A stretch of 64,000 nt of DNA from Pseudomonadota bacterium (GTDB lineage: Bacteria > Desulfobacterota > Binatia > Binatales > Binataceae), in contig JAJPIF010000004.1 of assembly GCA_021324885.1 (NCBI GenBank), positions 124,001-188,000 of the forward strand. Direction: 5' to 3'. Made by a program: the position numbers and the translations under genes. Shown here piece after piece: positions 34,588-42,766 of this stretch; the stretch's first letter is position 1; every line of letters begins with the position of its first letter. The notes under the pieces are model-generated. The model searched no databases and was not told the DNA's origin. It saw nothing but the letters and a program-made list of their open reading frames with translations.

Positions 34588-35283
34588 TTAATCGAACTGA
34601 CGGCTCAGCAGCGAATCAGATGCGATCAGGGCGCGCGCCAGGCGCAAATCATCGGGCGTGGTAATCTTGAAATTCAGCGTCGAGCCCGCGACGATTTCGA
34701 TCGGTGCACCCAGCTGCTCAACCAGGAAAGCGTCATCGGTGGCACGGGTCGAACCGGCCGCGTGCGCGGCGATTAGCAGCTCGCGGCGAAACGCCTGAGG
34801 GGTTTGCGCGGCCACCAGACCGTCGCGCGCTCGAGTGGCGATGACGATGTTGTGCTGCGCCTCCTTCAAAGTATCGGCAACGGGAATCGCCGCAATCGCA
34901 CCGCCACTGCGAACGGCGGCGGCGATGCAATCGGTAAAGAGCCGGGCCGCAGCGAAAGGACGCGCCGCATCATGGACCAGAATCACCACGCTTTCCGCGC
35001 TAACCATCGACAGCGCCAGACGCACCGAGTCCTGGCGCTCGGCTCCGCCGGTAACCAGCTTCAATGGCACGTCCACCCCGGCACGTTGCGCCGCCGAACG
35101 CGCGTCCGCTTCTTTTCCATGTGGAATTGCGACGATGATCTCGCCGATTGCGCTCAGCGCTCGAAGCGTCCTCAGAGAATAGTACAAAAGCGGTACGGTA
35201 CCGAGCTGGACGAAAGCTTTGGGCTCTGAATGCCCAAGGCGGACGCCGGTGCCCGCCGCCACGATGATTGCCGAGGCTCTCAT
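34588..35283 (-). CDS. ispD: 2-C-methyl-D-erythritol 4-phosphate cytidylyltransferase
   Basis: Joins CTP to methylerythritol phosphate in the MEP isoprenoid pathway, which also feeds the polyprenyl tail of menaquinone. The 231 residues show IIVAAGTGVRLGHSEPKAF, the CTP-binding motif, VTGGAERQDSVRLAL, the catalytic VHDAARPF, and ATDDAFLVEQLG. carD lies 187 bases upstream on the same strand, a neighbour pairing I recall from related bacteria. ispF, often next or fused, is missing here. Confidence 0.95.
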   Translation of the reverse strand: MRASAIIVAAGTGVRLGHSEPKAFVQLGTVPLLYYSLRTLRALSAIGEIIVAIPHGKEADARSAAQRAGVDVPLKLVTGGAERQDSVRLALSMVSAESVVILVHDAARPFAAARLFTDCIAAAVRSGGAIAAIPVADTLKEAQHNIVIATRARDGLVAAQTPQAFRRELLIAAHAAGSTRATDDAFLVEQLGAPIEIVAGSTLNFKITTPDDLRLARALIASDSLLSRQFD

Positions 35284-35470: not shown

Positions 35471-35959
35471 TCAACTGGCAAAAATCGTATTGAGTTCCTC
35501 CATGATTTTCTCTTCGGGATGAGCCCGCGCGATCGACAACTCCTTAACCAGCAGGCTGCGCGCGGTGTCCAGCATCTTACGCTCGCCAAAAGAGAGCTCC
35601 TTGTCGCCCTTGAGCACTAACAGATCGCGCAGCACTTTGGCGATTTCCAGCGGCGAGCCAGTTTTGATTTTCTCCGTATATTCGCGGTAACGCCGATTCC
35701 AGGTCTGACTATCGACCTCCACCTTTCGCTCACGCAGAATCTTGTAGATTTTGGTGACCATGTCCTTGCCGATAACGCGGCGCAGCCCCACGGCGTCGAC
35801 GTTCTCGGTCGGAATCATGATGGTCATTTCGCTGTCGAGGATTCGCAGCATGTAAAACTTGCGCTCGGTGCCGGAAATGACCTTGCTCTGGATGTCGTCG
35901 ATCACACCCACACCATGGGCGGGGTACACGACCTTTTCGCCTTTTTTGAACGGTAGCAT
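35471..35959 (-). CDS. CarD/CdnL-family transcription regulator
   Basis: A 162-residue RNA-polymerase-binding protein. Residues 1-60 form the CarD/TRCF interaction domain (FKKGEKVVYPAHGVGVIDDI), which contacts the polymerase beta subunit. The C-terminal part is helical and binds promoter DNA, with a conserved Trp (Trp90 region, SQTWNRRYREYTEKI). CdnL-type proteins stabilise open complexes at rRNA and housekeeping promoters. The upstream frame is not conserved, so I use the ATG at 35959. rimI is upstream and ispD downstream on the same strand. Confidence 0.93.
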   Translation of the reverse strand: MLPFKKGEKVVYPAHGVGVIDDIQSKVISGTERKFYMLRILDSEMTIMIPTENVDAVGLRRVIGKDMVTKIYKILRERKVEVDSQTWNRRYREYTEKIKTGSPLEIAKVLRDLLVLKGDKELSFGERKMLDTARSLLVKELSIARAHPEEKIMEELNTIFAS

Positions 35960-36134
35960 CGTTTTCCCGGGGTTCCGGGTACCTGATTTCGGCGGGTTGG
36001 TGACACCAAGGCGTTCACTTCCCACACGATCGAGCCGGACCATCAATATTGTTACATAAATTTGTAGATCGGTTAAGAAGCAGCCCGACGACGCGGGCTT
36101 TTGAGAAAGATGGAAACTATAGACGAAATTTGAC

Positions 36135-36587
36135 TTATTCCGTGACCAGTTCCATCACCAGCGCGTCTTCACCGGGGCCGTAATAATTGCGCCGCAGCCG
36201 GCGTTCCTCGAAACCGAATTTACGGTACAGCCGGCGCGCCTCCAGATTGGAACGTCTGACCTCCAAAATCATCAGCGAAACTTTGCGTGCACGCCCCTCG
36301 GCAACCGCCCCGGCCATCAAAGCCGTACCCACGCCATGGCAGCGAAACTCAGGATGGACCGCGATATTCAGGATGTGATACTCGCCGGCGACCAGCCATC
36401 GGCACAGATAGCCCACGATCCGCGGTCCGCCCTCGCGGGCCTCATCCGTCACCGCCAGCATCAGACGCGAGAAGGAAAGCGAAAGTTCCCGTCTGAATGA
36501 GGCGAGGCTCCATGGTTCTCTGAAAGACAGGCGCTCGATATCGAGGACACGGGGCAGATCGTTATATGTGGCGTCACGTATTCGCAC
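36135..36587 (-). CDS. rimI: Ribosomal protein S18-alanine N-acetyltransferase (RimI)
   Basis: A 150-residue GNAT-fold acetyltransferase. It opens IRDATYNDLPRVLDIERLSF and carries the acetyl-CoA-binding motif A (NIAVHPEFRCHGVGTALMAG) and the LEVRRSNLEARRLYRKFGF segment characteristic of RimI. It would acetylate the N terminus of S18. It lies 45 bases after the ferredoxin-Hsp20-like fusion and 175 bases before carD on the same strand. Some GNAT proteins of this form have other protein targets. Confidence 0.9.
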   Translation of the reverse strand: MRIRDATYNDLPRVLDIERLSFREPWSLASFRRELSLSFSRLMLAVTDEAREGGPRIVGYLCRWLVAGEYHILNIAVHPEFRCHGVGTALMAGAVAEGRARKVSLMILEVRRSNLEARRLYRKFGFEERRLRRNYYGPGEDALVMELVTE

Positions 36588-36632: not shown

Positions 36633-38282
36633 TCAGGCCGCGCGCGGAATCTCCTCGGTCCTACTCTTCAGAACTATAATTTCAATCACCTTGTTTCTCA
36701 ACCGATGTCTGAAGCCGCTCACTGGCTCGTCGAAGTCGATGCGGGTGGTGAAATCGGCGGGAAACGACGAGGAGATATAAGCCAGACGACGCATCGCCTC
36801 GCCGCGCACGCTGGCCGCAATCGTCAAGACGCCGTCGTTCAGACTGATGTGGTAGTCGTAGTCAGGCATCTCGTCAGGCAAGCACCAAAGCCGCTTGAGC
36901 GCGGAGGCAGGCACCACCCGCGGCATCTCCAGCCTTACCAGGTAGGCGTTAGGCAGTCGGGTTACCGTATAGACAGTGCCATAACGGCGATCGCGCTCGA
37001 TCTTTTCGTCATGGAAATCGGTGGTGTAGCCGTCAAACCCCACCGTACGGCTGAAACGGCCCGACCTGCTGCCGCGGACCAGCAGTGCTCCCAACGGCGC
37101 GACCAACAGGCCCCAGATCGCGGCGCGCGCTCGCGCCCTTTGCCCGTACAGGATACGCTCGCGCAGCCGCCATCCCGCTTCGAGCAGGGCAAAGATGAAT
37201 CCGCCTACCACCCAACTCACAGCCGCAACTGACAAGGGACGGTGGTGTAAAATCAGCACCGCGATAGCCAAGGCTATGGCGGGGTAGAGAATCATGTTGA
37301 GAAGGAGATTGAGGGCGGTAGCGCGAGGACGCGAAAAGACCATCGGATCACCCACGACCTCCTCCAGGCTGCGCTTCAGCCGATCCGGCATCGCGCCGAG
37401 CACCGGCTCGGCCAGCCGCATCGCAAGCCGCGCCACAGCCGCTTCGCCACCATCGGATTTGATCTGGACCCCCGCCAGTACTGTCTCGAAATCCTGCTCC
37501 AACTCGCCAGCGAAGTGCTTCTCACCGATGGGTCCGGGCAGGTCGCCCACGTCTTTGGGCAGATTGAGGATAGTAGAGGTCGGTTGTGAGGGCGCGGGCG
37601 GCGCTTTTGCGGGCGCGGGCTTGGCCGCGGCCGCCGGCTCTTCGGCCGTATCCGCTTTCGGTTTGGATGCGGAAGCCGCGGCCGGCGCGGGTTTGGCAGC
37701 CGGCGCGGGTTTGGCAGCCGGCGCCGGAGCGCCGGGCGCAGTCGCGGGGGTCGTGGCGGCAGGCGCCGATCCGGCAGCGGCAGGCGCGGGCGACGCAGGT
37801 TTCGCCTGAGGTTCGGGGGCAGCACTCGCTAAGGGCTGGGCTGCGGGAGCGGCCGGTGCCGCCGTGACGGTGGCGGCCGCCGTCTGCGCGGCGGCAAGAC
37901 CATTGGCCACAGTGGCGGCGCCGTTAGCCGGCGCGGCGGGGGCCTCCGCGTCCTTGCGGAAGCGCGAGGGCGCGTCGTCGGGAAAGTCCTGGTCGGGATG
38001 CAGAGTGCGGGCGCGTTGGAGCAGCACCTGTTCGCTTTCAGGATTGTCCGGATCGGGAATACAGCAATCAACCGGGCAGACCGCGGCGCAGGCTTCATGA
38101 TCGTAAAATCCCACGCACTCGGTGCATTTGGACGGAACGATGTAGAAGATGTCGTCAGAGATCGCGGGTGAGGTCACGCCGTTGAGTTCCCATTCAGCGC
38201 CGCCGGCGTAGATTGCGGTGTTGGGGCATTCAGGCTCGCAAGCTCCGCAGTTGATGCACTCGCTGGTTATGATCGTCGCCAT
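36633..38282 (-). CDS. Ferredoxin - Ala/Pro linker - membrane - Hsp20-like fusion protein
   Basis: A 549-residue protein with an order of parts I do not know from any named family. Residues 1-75 are a two-[4Fe-4S] ferredoxin of the YfhL/Alvin type: Cys9, 12, 15, 19-Pro and Cys53, 56, 65, 69-Pro, with the typical eight-residue insert. Residues about 105-235 are an Ala/Pro/Lys-rich linker. Residues about 324-346 and 351-371, with a third hydrophobic patch at 388-402, look like membrane helices. Residues about 430-545 resemble an alpha-crystallin/Hsp20 domain (YLVRLEMPRVV, then DGVLTIAASVRG, then FPADF). The frame is uninterrupted with normal codon use, so it is not an assembly artefact of two genes. 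It leads a same-strand group with rimI, carD and ispD. Confidence 0.85.
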   Translation of the reverse strand: MATIITSECINCGACEPECPNTAIYAGGAEWELNGVTSPAISDDIFYIVPSKCTECVGFYDHEACAAVCPVDCCIPDPDNPESEQVLLQRARTLHPDQDFPDDAPSRFRKDAEAPAAPANGAATVANGLAAAQTAAATVTAAPAAPAAQPLASAAPEPQAKPASPAPAAAGSAPAATTPATAPGAPAPAAKPAPAAKPAPAAASASKPKADTAEEPAAAAKPAPAKAPPAPSQPTSTILNLPKDVGDLPGPIGEKHFAGELEQDFETVLAGVQIKSDGGEAAVARLAMRLAEPVLGAMPDRLKRSLEEVVGDPMVFSRPRATALNLLLNMILYPAIALAIAVLILHHRPLSVAAVSWVVGGFIFALLEAGWRLRERILYGQRARARAAIWGLLVAPLGALLVRGSRSGRFSRTVGFDGYTTDFHDEKIERDRRYGTVYTVTRLPNAYLVRLEMPRVVPASALKRLWCLPDEMPDYDYHISLNDGVLTIAASVRGEAMRRLAYISSSFPADFTTRIDFDEPVSGFRHRLRNKVIEIIVLKSRTEEIPRAA

Positions 38283-38556: not shown

Positions 38557-38838
38557 ATGAAGACATGGGTTGGAATACTGGGAATCTTGGCCATTGCAGG
38601 GACGTTGTCGGCCTGCGGTCCTGATATGAAGGTCATTCAGGAAAACACCAACCGGGCACAGGCTGCCGCTTCGAAGGCTGAGTCCGACGCCACGGCCGCC
38701 GAACAGTCCGCGACCACCGCCGAGGCGGCGGCCAAGAAGGCCAGTGATGACGCGACGGCGGCTGAAGATGCGTCGCGCCGGGCCAACGACGCGGTGTCTC
38801 GCCTGGAGGCGGCGTTCTCAGAATCGGTTACCAAGTAG
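38557..38838 (+). CDS. Alanine-zipper lipoprotein 1
   Basis: A 93-residue lipoprotein. The signal MKTWVGILGILAIAGTLSAC has a good lipobox with Cys20 as the lipidated residue. The rest is a single Ala-rich heptad coiled coil (AAASKAESDATAAEQSATTA and onward), like the Lpp/alanine-zipper outer-membrane lipoproteins, although without the C-terminal Lys seen in peptidoglycan-linked Lpp, except that it ends in VTK. SD AGGAGG sits just upstream. A hairpin terminator follows at 38914. A larger relative lies at 41344, and the second groEL is between them. Confidence 0.85.
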   Translation: MKTWVGILGILAIAGTLSACGPDMKVIQENTNRAQAAASKAESDATAAEQSATTAEAAAKKASDDATAAEDASRRANDAVSRLEAAFSESVTK

Positions 38839-41174: not shown

Positions 41175-41343
41175 TAACGGGCGCTGGCTGCAGCCCAAGC
41201 GTAGTTAATGCTAAAAGTGGAGTTATAGTAGCTTTTCGTATATCGGAAGCTTGCATGTAAGTGGTTTCTATGACAAACATCATCTGAACGAACTTCTTGG
41301 TAAGTCGATAGGCTGGTGCGAGGACTCTTAAGGAGGTAAATTG

Positions 41344-41796
41344 ATGCAGGGACTTTCGGGAACTTCAAAATTGATTGGGCTGGCCGGCTCGCTGTTGATC
41401 CTGGCGCTGGTGGCTGCTGGATGCAGTTCGGGCAATCCGACTCCGGAGCAGAATGCGATCAACGCGGCTAATCAGGCCGATCAAGCAGCCTCGCGCGCTG
41501 ATGCGGCTGCTCAGCGTGCTCAAGCGGCGGCATCGCAGGCTCAGTCGGCAGCCAGCCGCACTGAGCAAGCGGCCAACGATGCCAAGGCGGCTGCTGATCG
41601 CGCTGAGGCGATTGCCGAGAAGACGATGACCAGGAGACCGCGGCACCGGAGGATGGTGCATCGTCACTTCCATCACCATGTCCACCACATGGCAGCTCCG
41701 GCTGCGGCTCCCGCGGCGGCACCGGAAGCAGCTCCTCCGGCGGGTGGTCCTCCACCAGCGGGTGGTGGCGCTCCTCCGGCAGGCGGCACGCCGTAA
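41344..41796 (+). CDS. Alanine-zipper lipoprotein 2 with a His-rich segment
   Basis: A 150-residue lipoprotein. Signal and lipobox end at Cys27 (LVAAGC). Residues about 36-94 are an Ala-zipper coiled coil like that of the gene at 38557. Residues 101-115 contain eight His (at 101, 106, 108, 110-112, 114, 115) among Arg residues, which may bind metal. The last 35 residues are Ala/Pro/Gly-rich. AAGGAGGT lies eight bases before the ATG, and a strong terminator follows. It begins 170 bases after groEL2 and could be partly read through from it. Confidence 0.83.
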   Translation: MQGLSGTSKLIGLAGSLLILALVAAGCSSGNPTPEQNAINAANQADQAASRADAAAQRAQAAASQAQSAASRTEQAANDAKAAADRAEAIAEKTMTRRPRHRRMVHRHFHHHVHHMAAPAAAPAAAPEAAPPAGGPPPAGGGAPPAGGTP

Positions 41797-41856: not shown

Positions 41857-41947
41857 GGTGACCATCGGCCAGTCTCCCATGGCCCACACTCAATTCGTTT
41901 TAAGGATTGGATTGACCAACGCGCCAACGAAGGCGAAGCTTGCAGGT

Positions 41948-42766
41948 ATGCCGATCGAATCGAAGCCCAACACCAGTGCTCCGCAGGCTGATTTGAACCG
42001 TTTGCCTTTGGAAATCCGGCGGGGACTTTACGAGACGATCTTCCGCCGTCGCGACATGCGCGAGTTTCGTCCCGACCCGGTTCCGGATGAGGTTCTCGCG
42101 CGCGTGCTGGTGGCCGCCCATCATGCGGGGAGCGTCGGCTTTACCCAGCCTTGGGACTTCATCGTGGTGCGCGACCTCGAGCGCCGGCGGGAGGTCAAAC
42201 GCGTGTTCGAGGAAGAACGGCTGCGCAACGCCGAGCAGTTCAGCGGCCAGCGACGCGAGAAGTTTCTTTCGCTCAAGCTCGAAGGTATCGTCGAATCGCC
42301 GCTCAACCTGATCGTGACCTGCGAGCCCGATCGGTTCGGCCCGGGGGTGTTGGGCAAGACAGCAATCACGGAAGTGGAGATCTATTCCACCTGTCTGGCA
42401 ATCGAAAACCTCTGGCTGGCTGCGCGCGTGGAGGGATTGGGAGTCGGATGGGTCAGTATTTTGCGCAACGAATGCCTGCGGCGAACTTTCGGAATTCCCA
42501 AAAACGTCATCCCCATCGCCTATCTATGCATCGGTTACGTCGACTCGTTCCCTTCGCGTCCAATTCTGGAGAAGGCGGGATGGGCGGAACGACTGTCGCC
42601 GCATCGCCTGCTGCACTTCGACTCGTGGGAACATCGCGCCTCGGACGATCAGCCATTGACGCGCCTGGTAAGGGATCCGGAAATCTGGCGCGATATTTTT
42701 CCCGGGGAGGAAGCCGGCTCCAAGGATGGACCAGAGTGGAAACAAGCGCCACAGTTGCGCAAATGA
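41948..42766 (+). CDS. bluB: 5,6-dimethylbenzimidazole synthase (BluB)
   Basis: Breaks down reduced FMN with oxygen to give the lower ligand of vitamin B12. The 272 residues show the BluB signature RRRDMREFRPDPVPDEVL and HHAGSVGFTQPWDFIVVRD, which sets it apart from ordinary nitroreductases, plus the AITEVEIYSTCLAIENLWLAAR helix. The frame is open farther upstream with Met codons at 41855 and 41879. I prefer 41948 as it is nearest the family start, but its SD is weak. A sulfurtransferase and pcp follow on the same strand. Confidence 0.88.
   Translation: MPIESKPNTSAPQADLNRLPLEIRRGLYETIFRRRDMREFRPDPVPDEVLARVLVAAHHAGSVGFTQPWDFIVVRDLERRREVKRVFEEERLRNAEQFSGQRREKFLSLKLEGIVESPLNLIVTCEPDRFGPGVLGKTAITEVEIYSTCLAIENLWLAARVEGLGVGWVSILRNECLRRTFGIPKNVIPIAYLCIGYVDSFPSRPILEKAGWAERLSPHRLLHFDSWEHRASDDQPLTRLVRDPEIWRDIFPGEEAGSKDGPEWKQAPQLRK

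Follow-up and report, generated by a model that had tools for sequence, protein, structure and literature searches.

A ferredoxin fused to a predicted alpha-crystallin-like domain in Binatia and its possible zinc-ribbon partner

In a 64,000-nucleotide stretch of DNA (the window), whose class we took as Binatia, one gene appears to join a ferredoxin, through a hydrophobic segment, to a domain that resembles small heat shock proteins (sHSPs). Is this join genuine, what are its two ends, and what might they do together? The fusion architecture and the zinc-ribbon protein coupled to it (see below) were not found in the open-licence literature that we searched. Likewise, neither ferredoxin nor heat shock nor Hsp20 is mentioned in the main text of PMC8262859, which concerns Binatota genomes, as far as that text was available.

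Architecture and recurrence of the fusion gene

The ATG-started open reading frame (ORF) encodes 549 aa (Table 1). We aligned the whole architecture in 27 rows, namely the window protein and proteins from 26 other loci, one of which was cut at the contig start. The Cys residues were near-invariant, and residues of the C-terminal part were invariant. Because the 27 rows align end to end with near-invariant Cys, the architecture is more than chance, and the fusion described in an earlier note on this DNA was confirmed as such. The rival account, in which a ferredoxin gene and an unrelated gene were joined by mis-assembly or a frameshift, could draw on the facts that most named records are metagenome assemblies and that several contigs end inside or beside the repeated ferredoxin. 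However, the same join was present in many families, including the single-contig genomes G153, G154 and G258. An assembly artefact was therefore rejected, and an artefact or chance fusion of any kind seems extremely improbable.

Table 1. Positions of the fusion gene, its parts, its conserved neighbours and its own-genome paralogs
Feature	Coordinates	Strand	Basis
Whole gene: ferredoxin, Ala/Pro tether, predicted membrane hairpin, predicted alpha-crystallin-like domain	36633..38282	minus	ORF and alignment
Ferredoxin module, residues 1-108, AlvinFdx/YfhL type, including conserved stretch to SRF-108	37959..38282	minus	NF033683 and alignment
First cluster motif CX2CX2CX3CP, Cys 9/12/15/19	38226..38258	minus	near-invariant in alignment
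Second cluster motif CX2CX8CX3CP, Cys 53/56/65/69	38076..38126	minus	near-invariant in alignment
Ala/Pro-rich tether, residues 109-259	37506..37958	minus	composition, 27 rows
Hydrophobic helix 1, residues 318-344, strongest membrane-segment candidate	37251..37331	minus	hydropathy and AlphaFold2
Hydrophobic helix 2, residues 352-379	37146..37229	minus	hydropathy and AlphaFold2
Short hydrophobic helix 3, residues 391-404, topology uncertain	37071..37112	minus	hydropathy and AlphaFold2
Predicted alpha-crystallin/CS-like domain (ACD) with preceding ERxRRYG helix, residues 424-539	36666..37013	minus	AlphaFold2, structure searches, profile-profile comparison
rimI, 45 nt downstream of fusion gene, conserved neighbour	36135..36587	minus	TIGR01575 over cut-off
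carD, conserved neighbour, start codon uncertain	35471..36046	minus	profile and locus comparison
ispD, neighbour	34588..35283	minus	profile and locus comparison
Zinc-ribbon paralog, 329 aa: same ferredoxin type, similar tether, zinc-ribbon/coiled-coil part	L081:1132-2121 (own genome)	minus	ORF
Stand-alone YfhL-type ferredoxin between ApbC/Mrp-family and myo-inositol-1-phosphate synthase genes	L082:304-3230 (own genome)		profiles

Relatives were sought in a scan with one genome per species. A relative was encoded in 132 stretches, the best 80 of which gave 79 loci; about half of these loci (L038 onward, with exceptions such as L042) hold short ferredoxins in Myxococcota-type records and not the fusion. 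By profile, the C-terminal domain was detected in 108 of 148 class genomes, or 107 without a weak match in G183. Across 198 genomes drawn over the phylum there were five positives, all within the class, and none of the 191 genomes counted outside the class carried the domain (seven of the genomes listed being class members). The gene neighbours recurred along with the fusion. rimI lay downstream in all 31 loci compared, carD in 27 and ispD in 19, with L009 left out and some loci ending early, and in the window all three are on the strand of the fusion gene, as the earlier note had it. One exception to the architecture (L030, genome G250) has the hydrophobic part with no ferredoxin visible and no zinc-ribbon match.

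Judged by its sequence, the N-terminal module is a YfhL/AlvinFdx-type 2[4Fe-4S] ferredoxin. Residues 1-92 matched NCBIfam NF033683 (YfhL ferredoxin) with 87.6 bits, which is over the cut-off of 86, and the N-terminal Pfam matches of the window protein up to E 1 were to Fe-S binding families alone. The translated ORF places eight Cys exactly where they had been reported. The second motif departs from the classical CX2CX2CX3C. Its 6 extra residues between two Cys agree with the AlvinFdx/YfhL signature, which, in the parts of PMC2984482 available to us, is given as CX2CX2CX3CP, a second motif in which two Cys are set apart by 6-7 additional residues, and a partly helical fragment of 27-43 residues after the last Cys. 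The corresponding stretch of the window protein has 39 residues (70-108) and is partly conserved in the alignment. The module would be expected to bind its clusters and to have a very low potential.

Stand-alone proteins of this type, Fdx1 of Pseudomonas aeruginosa, YfhL of Escherichia coli and FdxA of Helicobacter pylori, are alike in Cys pattern and in the conserved stretch after the last Cys, according to the available portions of PMC2984482 and PMC8144621. The second motif of H. pylori FdxA has X9, as compared to X8 in the window protein, and that protein is only 84 aa long, whereas the window ferredoxin continues into a tether, a hydrophobic hairpin and an alpha-crystallin-like domain. 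At its full length the window protein exceeds the 100 aa limit of the ferredoxin inventory in PMC2984482. That 2010 paper called the functional importance of the very-low-potential AlvinFdx-type ferredoxins unknown, reported the gene to be essential in P. aeruginosa, and described ferredoxins of this type as poor donors and acceptors in coupled assays.

The Ala/Pro linker noted earlier is present after SRF-108 and consists of 58% Ala+Pro, but it is 151 residues long rather than the 130 claimed. It was Ala/Pro-rich in 27 of 27 rows, ranging from 57 to 173 residues and from 42 to 71% Ala+Pro. Beyond it, hydropathy peaks at KD19 values of 2.51, 2.04 and 1.58 marked one strong and two weaker stretches, in agreement with the two or three hydrophobic helices seen before. 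Helix 1 reached 1.72-2.75 across the 27 fusion rows. The hydrophobic hairpin is probably a membrane anchor, and its insertion would leave the ferredoxin on the cytosolic side. If there were three membrane helices rather than two, the ACD would lie outside.

Fold of the C-terminal domain

Likeness to sHSPs had been claimed for the C-terminal part, along with a proposal to search it against PF00011. No Pfam HSP20 match was found in the window protein up to E 1 or in 18 homologous C-terminal rows up to E 10, where the sole Pfam match was YscD-like (one row, E 0.089). The C-terminal profile likewise found no HSP20 among PDB sequences up to E 10. By profile, the domain was thus not placed in PF00011. 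Instead, the evidence for a link to HSP20 comes from the predicted fold, from profile-profile comparison and from one weak tblastn match.

AlphaFold2 models were built for residues 247-549 from 31 rows (mean pLDDT 79.4, pTM 0.54) and for the last 139 residues from 29 rows (mean pLDDT 79.9, pTM 0.71). The predicted strands of the ACD run in what we take to be the order of the alpha-crystallin domain. In Foldseek the best match was the sHSP 3gla_B (E 9.4e-5, TM by query 0.48), and all 28 matches with E < 0.001 were sHSPs or CS domains. The best VIA-align match was Xanthomonas HspA (Z 8.9, rmsd 3.0, 89 aligned), as compared to Z 7.0-7.7 for CS domains, whose fold (CS/p23) lacks the beta-6 strand of sHSPs; all of the 50 matches listed were of HSP20/CS type, and the larger construct gave Z 7.5. 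Z values of 7-9 are common for small sandwiches. We also compared the C-terminal family with 15 HSP20 proteins of the same class by hhalign, which gave a score of 39.7 (probability 88), or 30.1 (probability 49) with the roles reversed; controls scored at most 22.1 among 60 column shuffles and 18.1 for a reversed alignment. By tblastn, the window C-terminal part matched one genuine PF00011 protein of a relative (E 1.1e-4). Assignment of the modelled domain to the alpha-crystallin/CS fold class is well supported, and the likeness to sHSPs was upheld for the predicted fold by the two models and the structure searches. Two outcomes had been named in the earlier note as refuting, a predicted fold other than an alpha-crystallin sandwich and a fusion missing from all close relatives; on checking, neither was obtained.

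The domain also differs from sHSPs in several respects. It falls below Pfam detection, an inserted loop in the model carries a conserved DEMPDYDY motif, a hydrophobic hairpin precedes it, and a helix (residues 85-93 of the ACD model) occupies the position of beta-6, the sHSP dimerisation strand between beta-5 and beta-7. The C-terminal IxI/V motif is typical of sHSPs, and no conserved motif of this kind was seen by eye in the 27 rows. Because of the sub-threshold Pfam signal, the insertion, the helix at the beta-6 site and the missing IxI motif, the ACD may be an adaptor, similar to CS domains, rather than a holdase.

Ncb5or (CYB5R4; cytochrome b5 - CS - b5 reductase) likewise combines a redox carrier and a domain of the HSP20/CS fold in one natural protein; there the CS domain joins two redox domains, according to the available parts of PMC9706631. 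The CS-b5R structures of Ncb5or (6mv1, 6mv2) were among the 50 VIA-align matches listed for the ACD model, with Z 7.0. Ncb5or is an animal protein with haem and flavin and without ferredoxin, whereas the window protein is bacterial and carries a ferredoxin. We know of no hydrophobic hairpin or zinc-ribbon partner as a feature of Ncb5or. From the predicted fold and this parallel, we infer that the ACD could be a docking or client-binding part.

A zinc-ribbon protein with the same ferredoxin

A finding more informative than the fusion itself, and one that the earlier note had no means to see, concerns a second fused protein. Besides the copy in the fusion gene, the genome of the window contains two more complete copies of the ferredoxin, one stand-alone and one fused. 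The C-terminal part of the second fused protein has, judged by eye, a CX2C...CX2C zinc-ribbon-like motif and a coiled coil. Pfam at E 0.01 matched only the ferredoxin of this paralog and nothing in its C-terminal part. In 26 zinc-ribbon proteins, the KD19 maximum after the ferredoxin was 1.52, within the Ala-rich tether, and on this measure the protein appears to have no membrane segment comparable to that of the fusion.

The zinc-ribbon profile matched in 102 of 143 class genomes, although the matches in G273 and G253, which cover 32-34 residues of small ORFs, are doubtful. With these two and the weak ACD match of G183 left out, 95 of the 143 genomes carried both C-terminal domains, 8 carried just the ACD, 5 just the zinc-ribbon and 35 neither; with the G273 and G253 matches kept, the counts were 96, 7, 6 and 34. 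Among the 108 genomes that are at least 90% complete they were 77, 5, 3 and 23, in the same order. Fisher's test for co-occurrence gave a p of 2e-20, and this test ignores relatedness. Genomes with neither domain span nine families (f1, f2, f4, f65, f66, f67, f69, f73 and f77), and other genomes in eight of these, all but f69, have both. When five zinc-ribbon loci were compared, the sole protein group in a real frame that was common to all was the fusion itself. Acyl-CoA dehydrogenase genes adjoin the zinc-ribbon gene in L019, L020 and L027 (profile-checked in L019 and L027), and none was found beside it in the cluster with L024 and L029.

We compared the two ferredoxin modules in 26 genomes, chosen for listed ferredoxin matches of both kinds. 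Modules of the same genome were sisters in 17 of the 26 in a midpoint-rooted codon tree and in 14 of the 26 in a protein tree. Support was less than 0.2 for two of the 17 pairs (G153 and G056) and 0.993 for that of G154, whose single contig makes this sister pair speak against an assembly artefact. The other nine pairs in the codon tree were not sisters, four of them (G286, G219, G221, G222) lying far apart. A single clade of all ACD-fused ferredoxins was rejected (p-AU 1.9e-7, 898 log units), and 11 stand-alone ferredoxins formed one clade (99/95). Module DNA identity within a genome was 98% in G164, G165, G166 and G203 and 96% in G169; the pair in the window's own genome had 84%, which does not exceed the 85% shared with the nearest other genome. 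In seven pairs, identity fell to ~60% between the end of the module and ~280 columns into the tether. The simplest account of these patterns is that gene conversion has acted repeatedly on the redox module and the first part of the tether and not beyond; it would then be the cause of the uniform ferredoxins. Even in the absence of selection, near-identical repeats can undergo gene conversion.

Proteins without the ferredoxin were sought among genomes with short ACD or zinc-ribbon frames. Both proteins lacked it in six genomes (G175, G182 and G193-G196). An ACD protein without ferredoxin was also present in G202, and in G177, where it is cut at a contig end, with no zinc-ribbon protein found in either; G183 has a ferredoxin-less zinc-ribbon protein and no ACD frame was seen. 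KD19 never exceeded 1.34 in ACD proteins without ferredoxin from nine genomes (these six, with G197, G200 and G202), as compared to 1.72-2.75 for helix 1 of the fusions. We then checked 40 additional zinc-ribbon loci, selected by hand from the remaining genomes with knowledge of their frame lengths. The ferredoxin was found by script in 38 of them (it is interrupted by masked bases in G272), and the other 2 were cut at contig ends. Among 20 further ACD loci, it was found in 14 by script and in 4 on reading, and 2 were cut. None of the 48 genomes in which both proteins were resolved (26 + 16 + 6) was discordant for the ferredoxin, where 26 of the 48 had been preselected for having both and G272, G281, G252 and G287 were left out. 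Within the window's family, ACD proteins without the ferredoxin make up a paraphyletic grade, which indicates that the ferredoxin was lost several times, or lost and later regained. Since these lineages kept both the ACD and the zinc-ribbon proteins, the C-terminal parts function without the ferredoxin.

Possible roles of the pair

These results point to the fusion and its partner as an undescribed pair that works together. Our preferred reading, held tentatively and at somewhat less than even confidence, is a redox pair made up of two adaptor proteins, the fusion being the one bound to the membrane, with one type of ferredoxin kept uniform on both by gene conversion. The very-low-potential 2[4Fe-4S] ferredoxin would swing on its flexible Ala/Pro tether from the membrane hairpin, on the cytosolic side, and the ACD would serve for docking or client binding. 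In the second protein, the same ferredoxin and a similar tether would be joined to a zinc-ribbon/coiled-coil part for docking, and a membrane segment like that of the fusion would be missing. Both ferredoxins would be kept uniform within many genomes by gene conversion, and the C-terminal parts would decide the destination and recipient of electrons or clusters. We propose that a common donor or acceptor of electrons (or clusters), which each ferredoxin has to fit, is the reason for this uniformity. The similarity of the modules within genomes suggests a common protein partner for both; this shared redox partner and the direction of electron flow are putative. POR/KOR (PF01855) was considered as a co-lost electron donor and rejected, since it is present in 140 of 143 genomes and does not discriminate. 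Several findings weigh against the preferred reading: the nine pairs that are not sisters, the 84% identity in the window's own genome, the retention of the ACD and zinc-ribbon proteins in lineages that lack the ferredoxin, and the cautions of PMC2984482 about conventional electron transfer by ferredoxins of this type.

A fuller form of this proposal is a possibility that we regard as doubtful. It describes a class-specific relay of two proteins, with an interchangeable low-potential ferredoxin cartridge, made near-identical by gene conversion, on a membrane-bound adaptor of alpha-crystallin type and on a zinc-ribbon adaptor without the hairpin. The same electrons or clusters would be delivered to two places, and the two proteins would be lost and kept as a unit.

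The persistence of the C-terminal parts without ferredoxin in several genera would also suit a redox or iron sensor. Its clusters would respond to oxygen or iron, without passing electrons on, and would control the ACD and zinc-ribbon proteins; these would do the actual work, acting for instance on transcription or on membrane proteins. A zinc-ribbon partner and a carD neighbour would fit such regulation, and PMC2984482 raises the idea that Fdx1 may serve something other than conventional electron transfer. However, the same source cites electron supply to benzoyl-CoA reductase as the one well-defined function of the family, and near-identical modules would be more expected from a shared protein partner than from sensing. 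We consider the sensor account improbable.

The stand-alone paralog raises a third account, that of Fe-S maturation or quality control at the membrane, in which the ferredoxin would be a cluster carrier acting with ApbC/Mrp and the ACD would hold apo or damaged membrane Fe-S clients; this comes close to the role suggested in the earlier note. Among 20 loci examined for this paralog, 15 have an ApbC-like gene directly upstream of it (gap < 300 nt), and in the window's own genome it follows an ApbC/Mrp-family gene as well. The product of the latter scored 322.9 bits with PF10609 (NUBPL iron-transfer NTPase) and 310.5 with the ApbC equivalog, whose cut-off is 348. In H. pylori, a two-hybrid screen showed ApbC to interact with the YfhL-type FdxA, according to the available part of PMC8144621; with the gene adjacency, this makes delivery of Fe-S clusters a possible role. 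The sHSP-like predicted fold of the ACD would also be in keeping with this account. On the other hand, the ferredoxin linked to ApbC is the stand-alone one, which belongs to a separate clade; the ACD has neither a visible conserved sHSP C-terminal motif nor a modelled beta-6 strand; and groEL is a neighbour in 8 of 31 loci. Maturation or quality control seems rather unlikely, although with the redox pair and the sensor it is one of three live accounts.

If the preferred reading of a two-protein redox pair holds, an AlvinFdx-type ferredoxin has been wired by evolution to two defined docking parts, with both copies kept uniform in many genomes, so that the partner might be identified by pull-downs with either of these parts. 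An HSP20-fold domain, as predicted, would have been recruited into a bacterial membrane redox protein, in parallel to the CS domain in Ncb5or.

Several features of the surrounding DNA were also noted. In the window, groEL lies on the other side of the fusion gene and on the opposite strand, with 1.19 kb between the gene starts, which agrees with the ~1.2 kb reported earlier; several of the 31 loci end before the groEL position, and at 8 of 31 its adjacency was rejected as a sign of a functional neighbour. The gap between the fusion gene and rimI is ~2 kb in 7 of the 31 loci. In L014 (6381-8323) it is filled by two FabH-like ketosynthase genes, and a gap of the same size is present in L012, L023, L025, L026, L028 and L032. 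The record of L023 is labelled Klebsiella pneumoniae, an apparent mislabelling, and appears to be contig 2 of the class member G239. Two small Ala-rich, lipoprotein-like genes flank the groEL region of the window (38560-38838 and 41341-41796); the first has a sub-threshold alanine-zipper match and homologs near the fusion gene in relatives. Shortly after groEL, at 41945-42766, lies bluB (5,6-dimethylbenzimidazole synthase), which matched TIGR02476 with 236 bits against a cut-off of 150.
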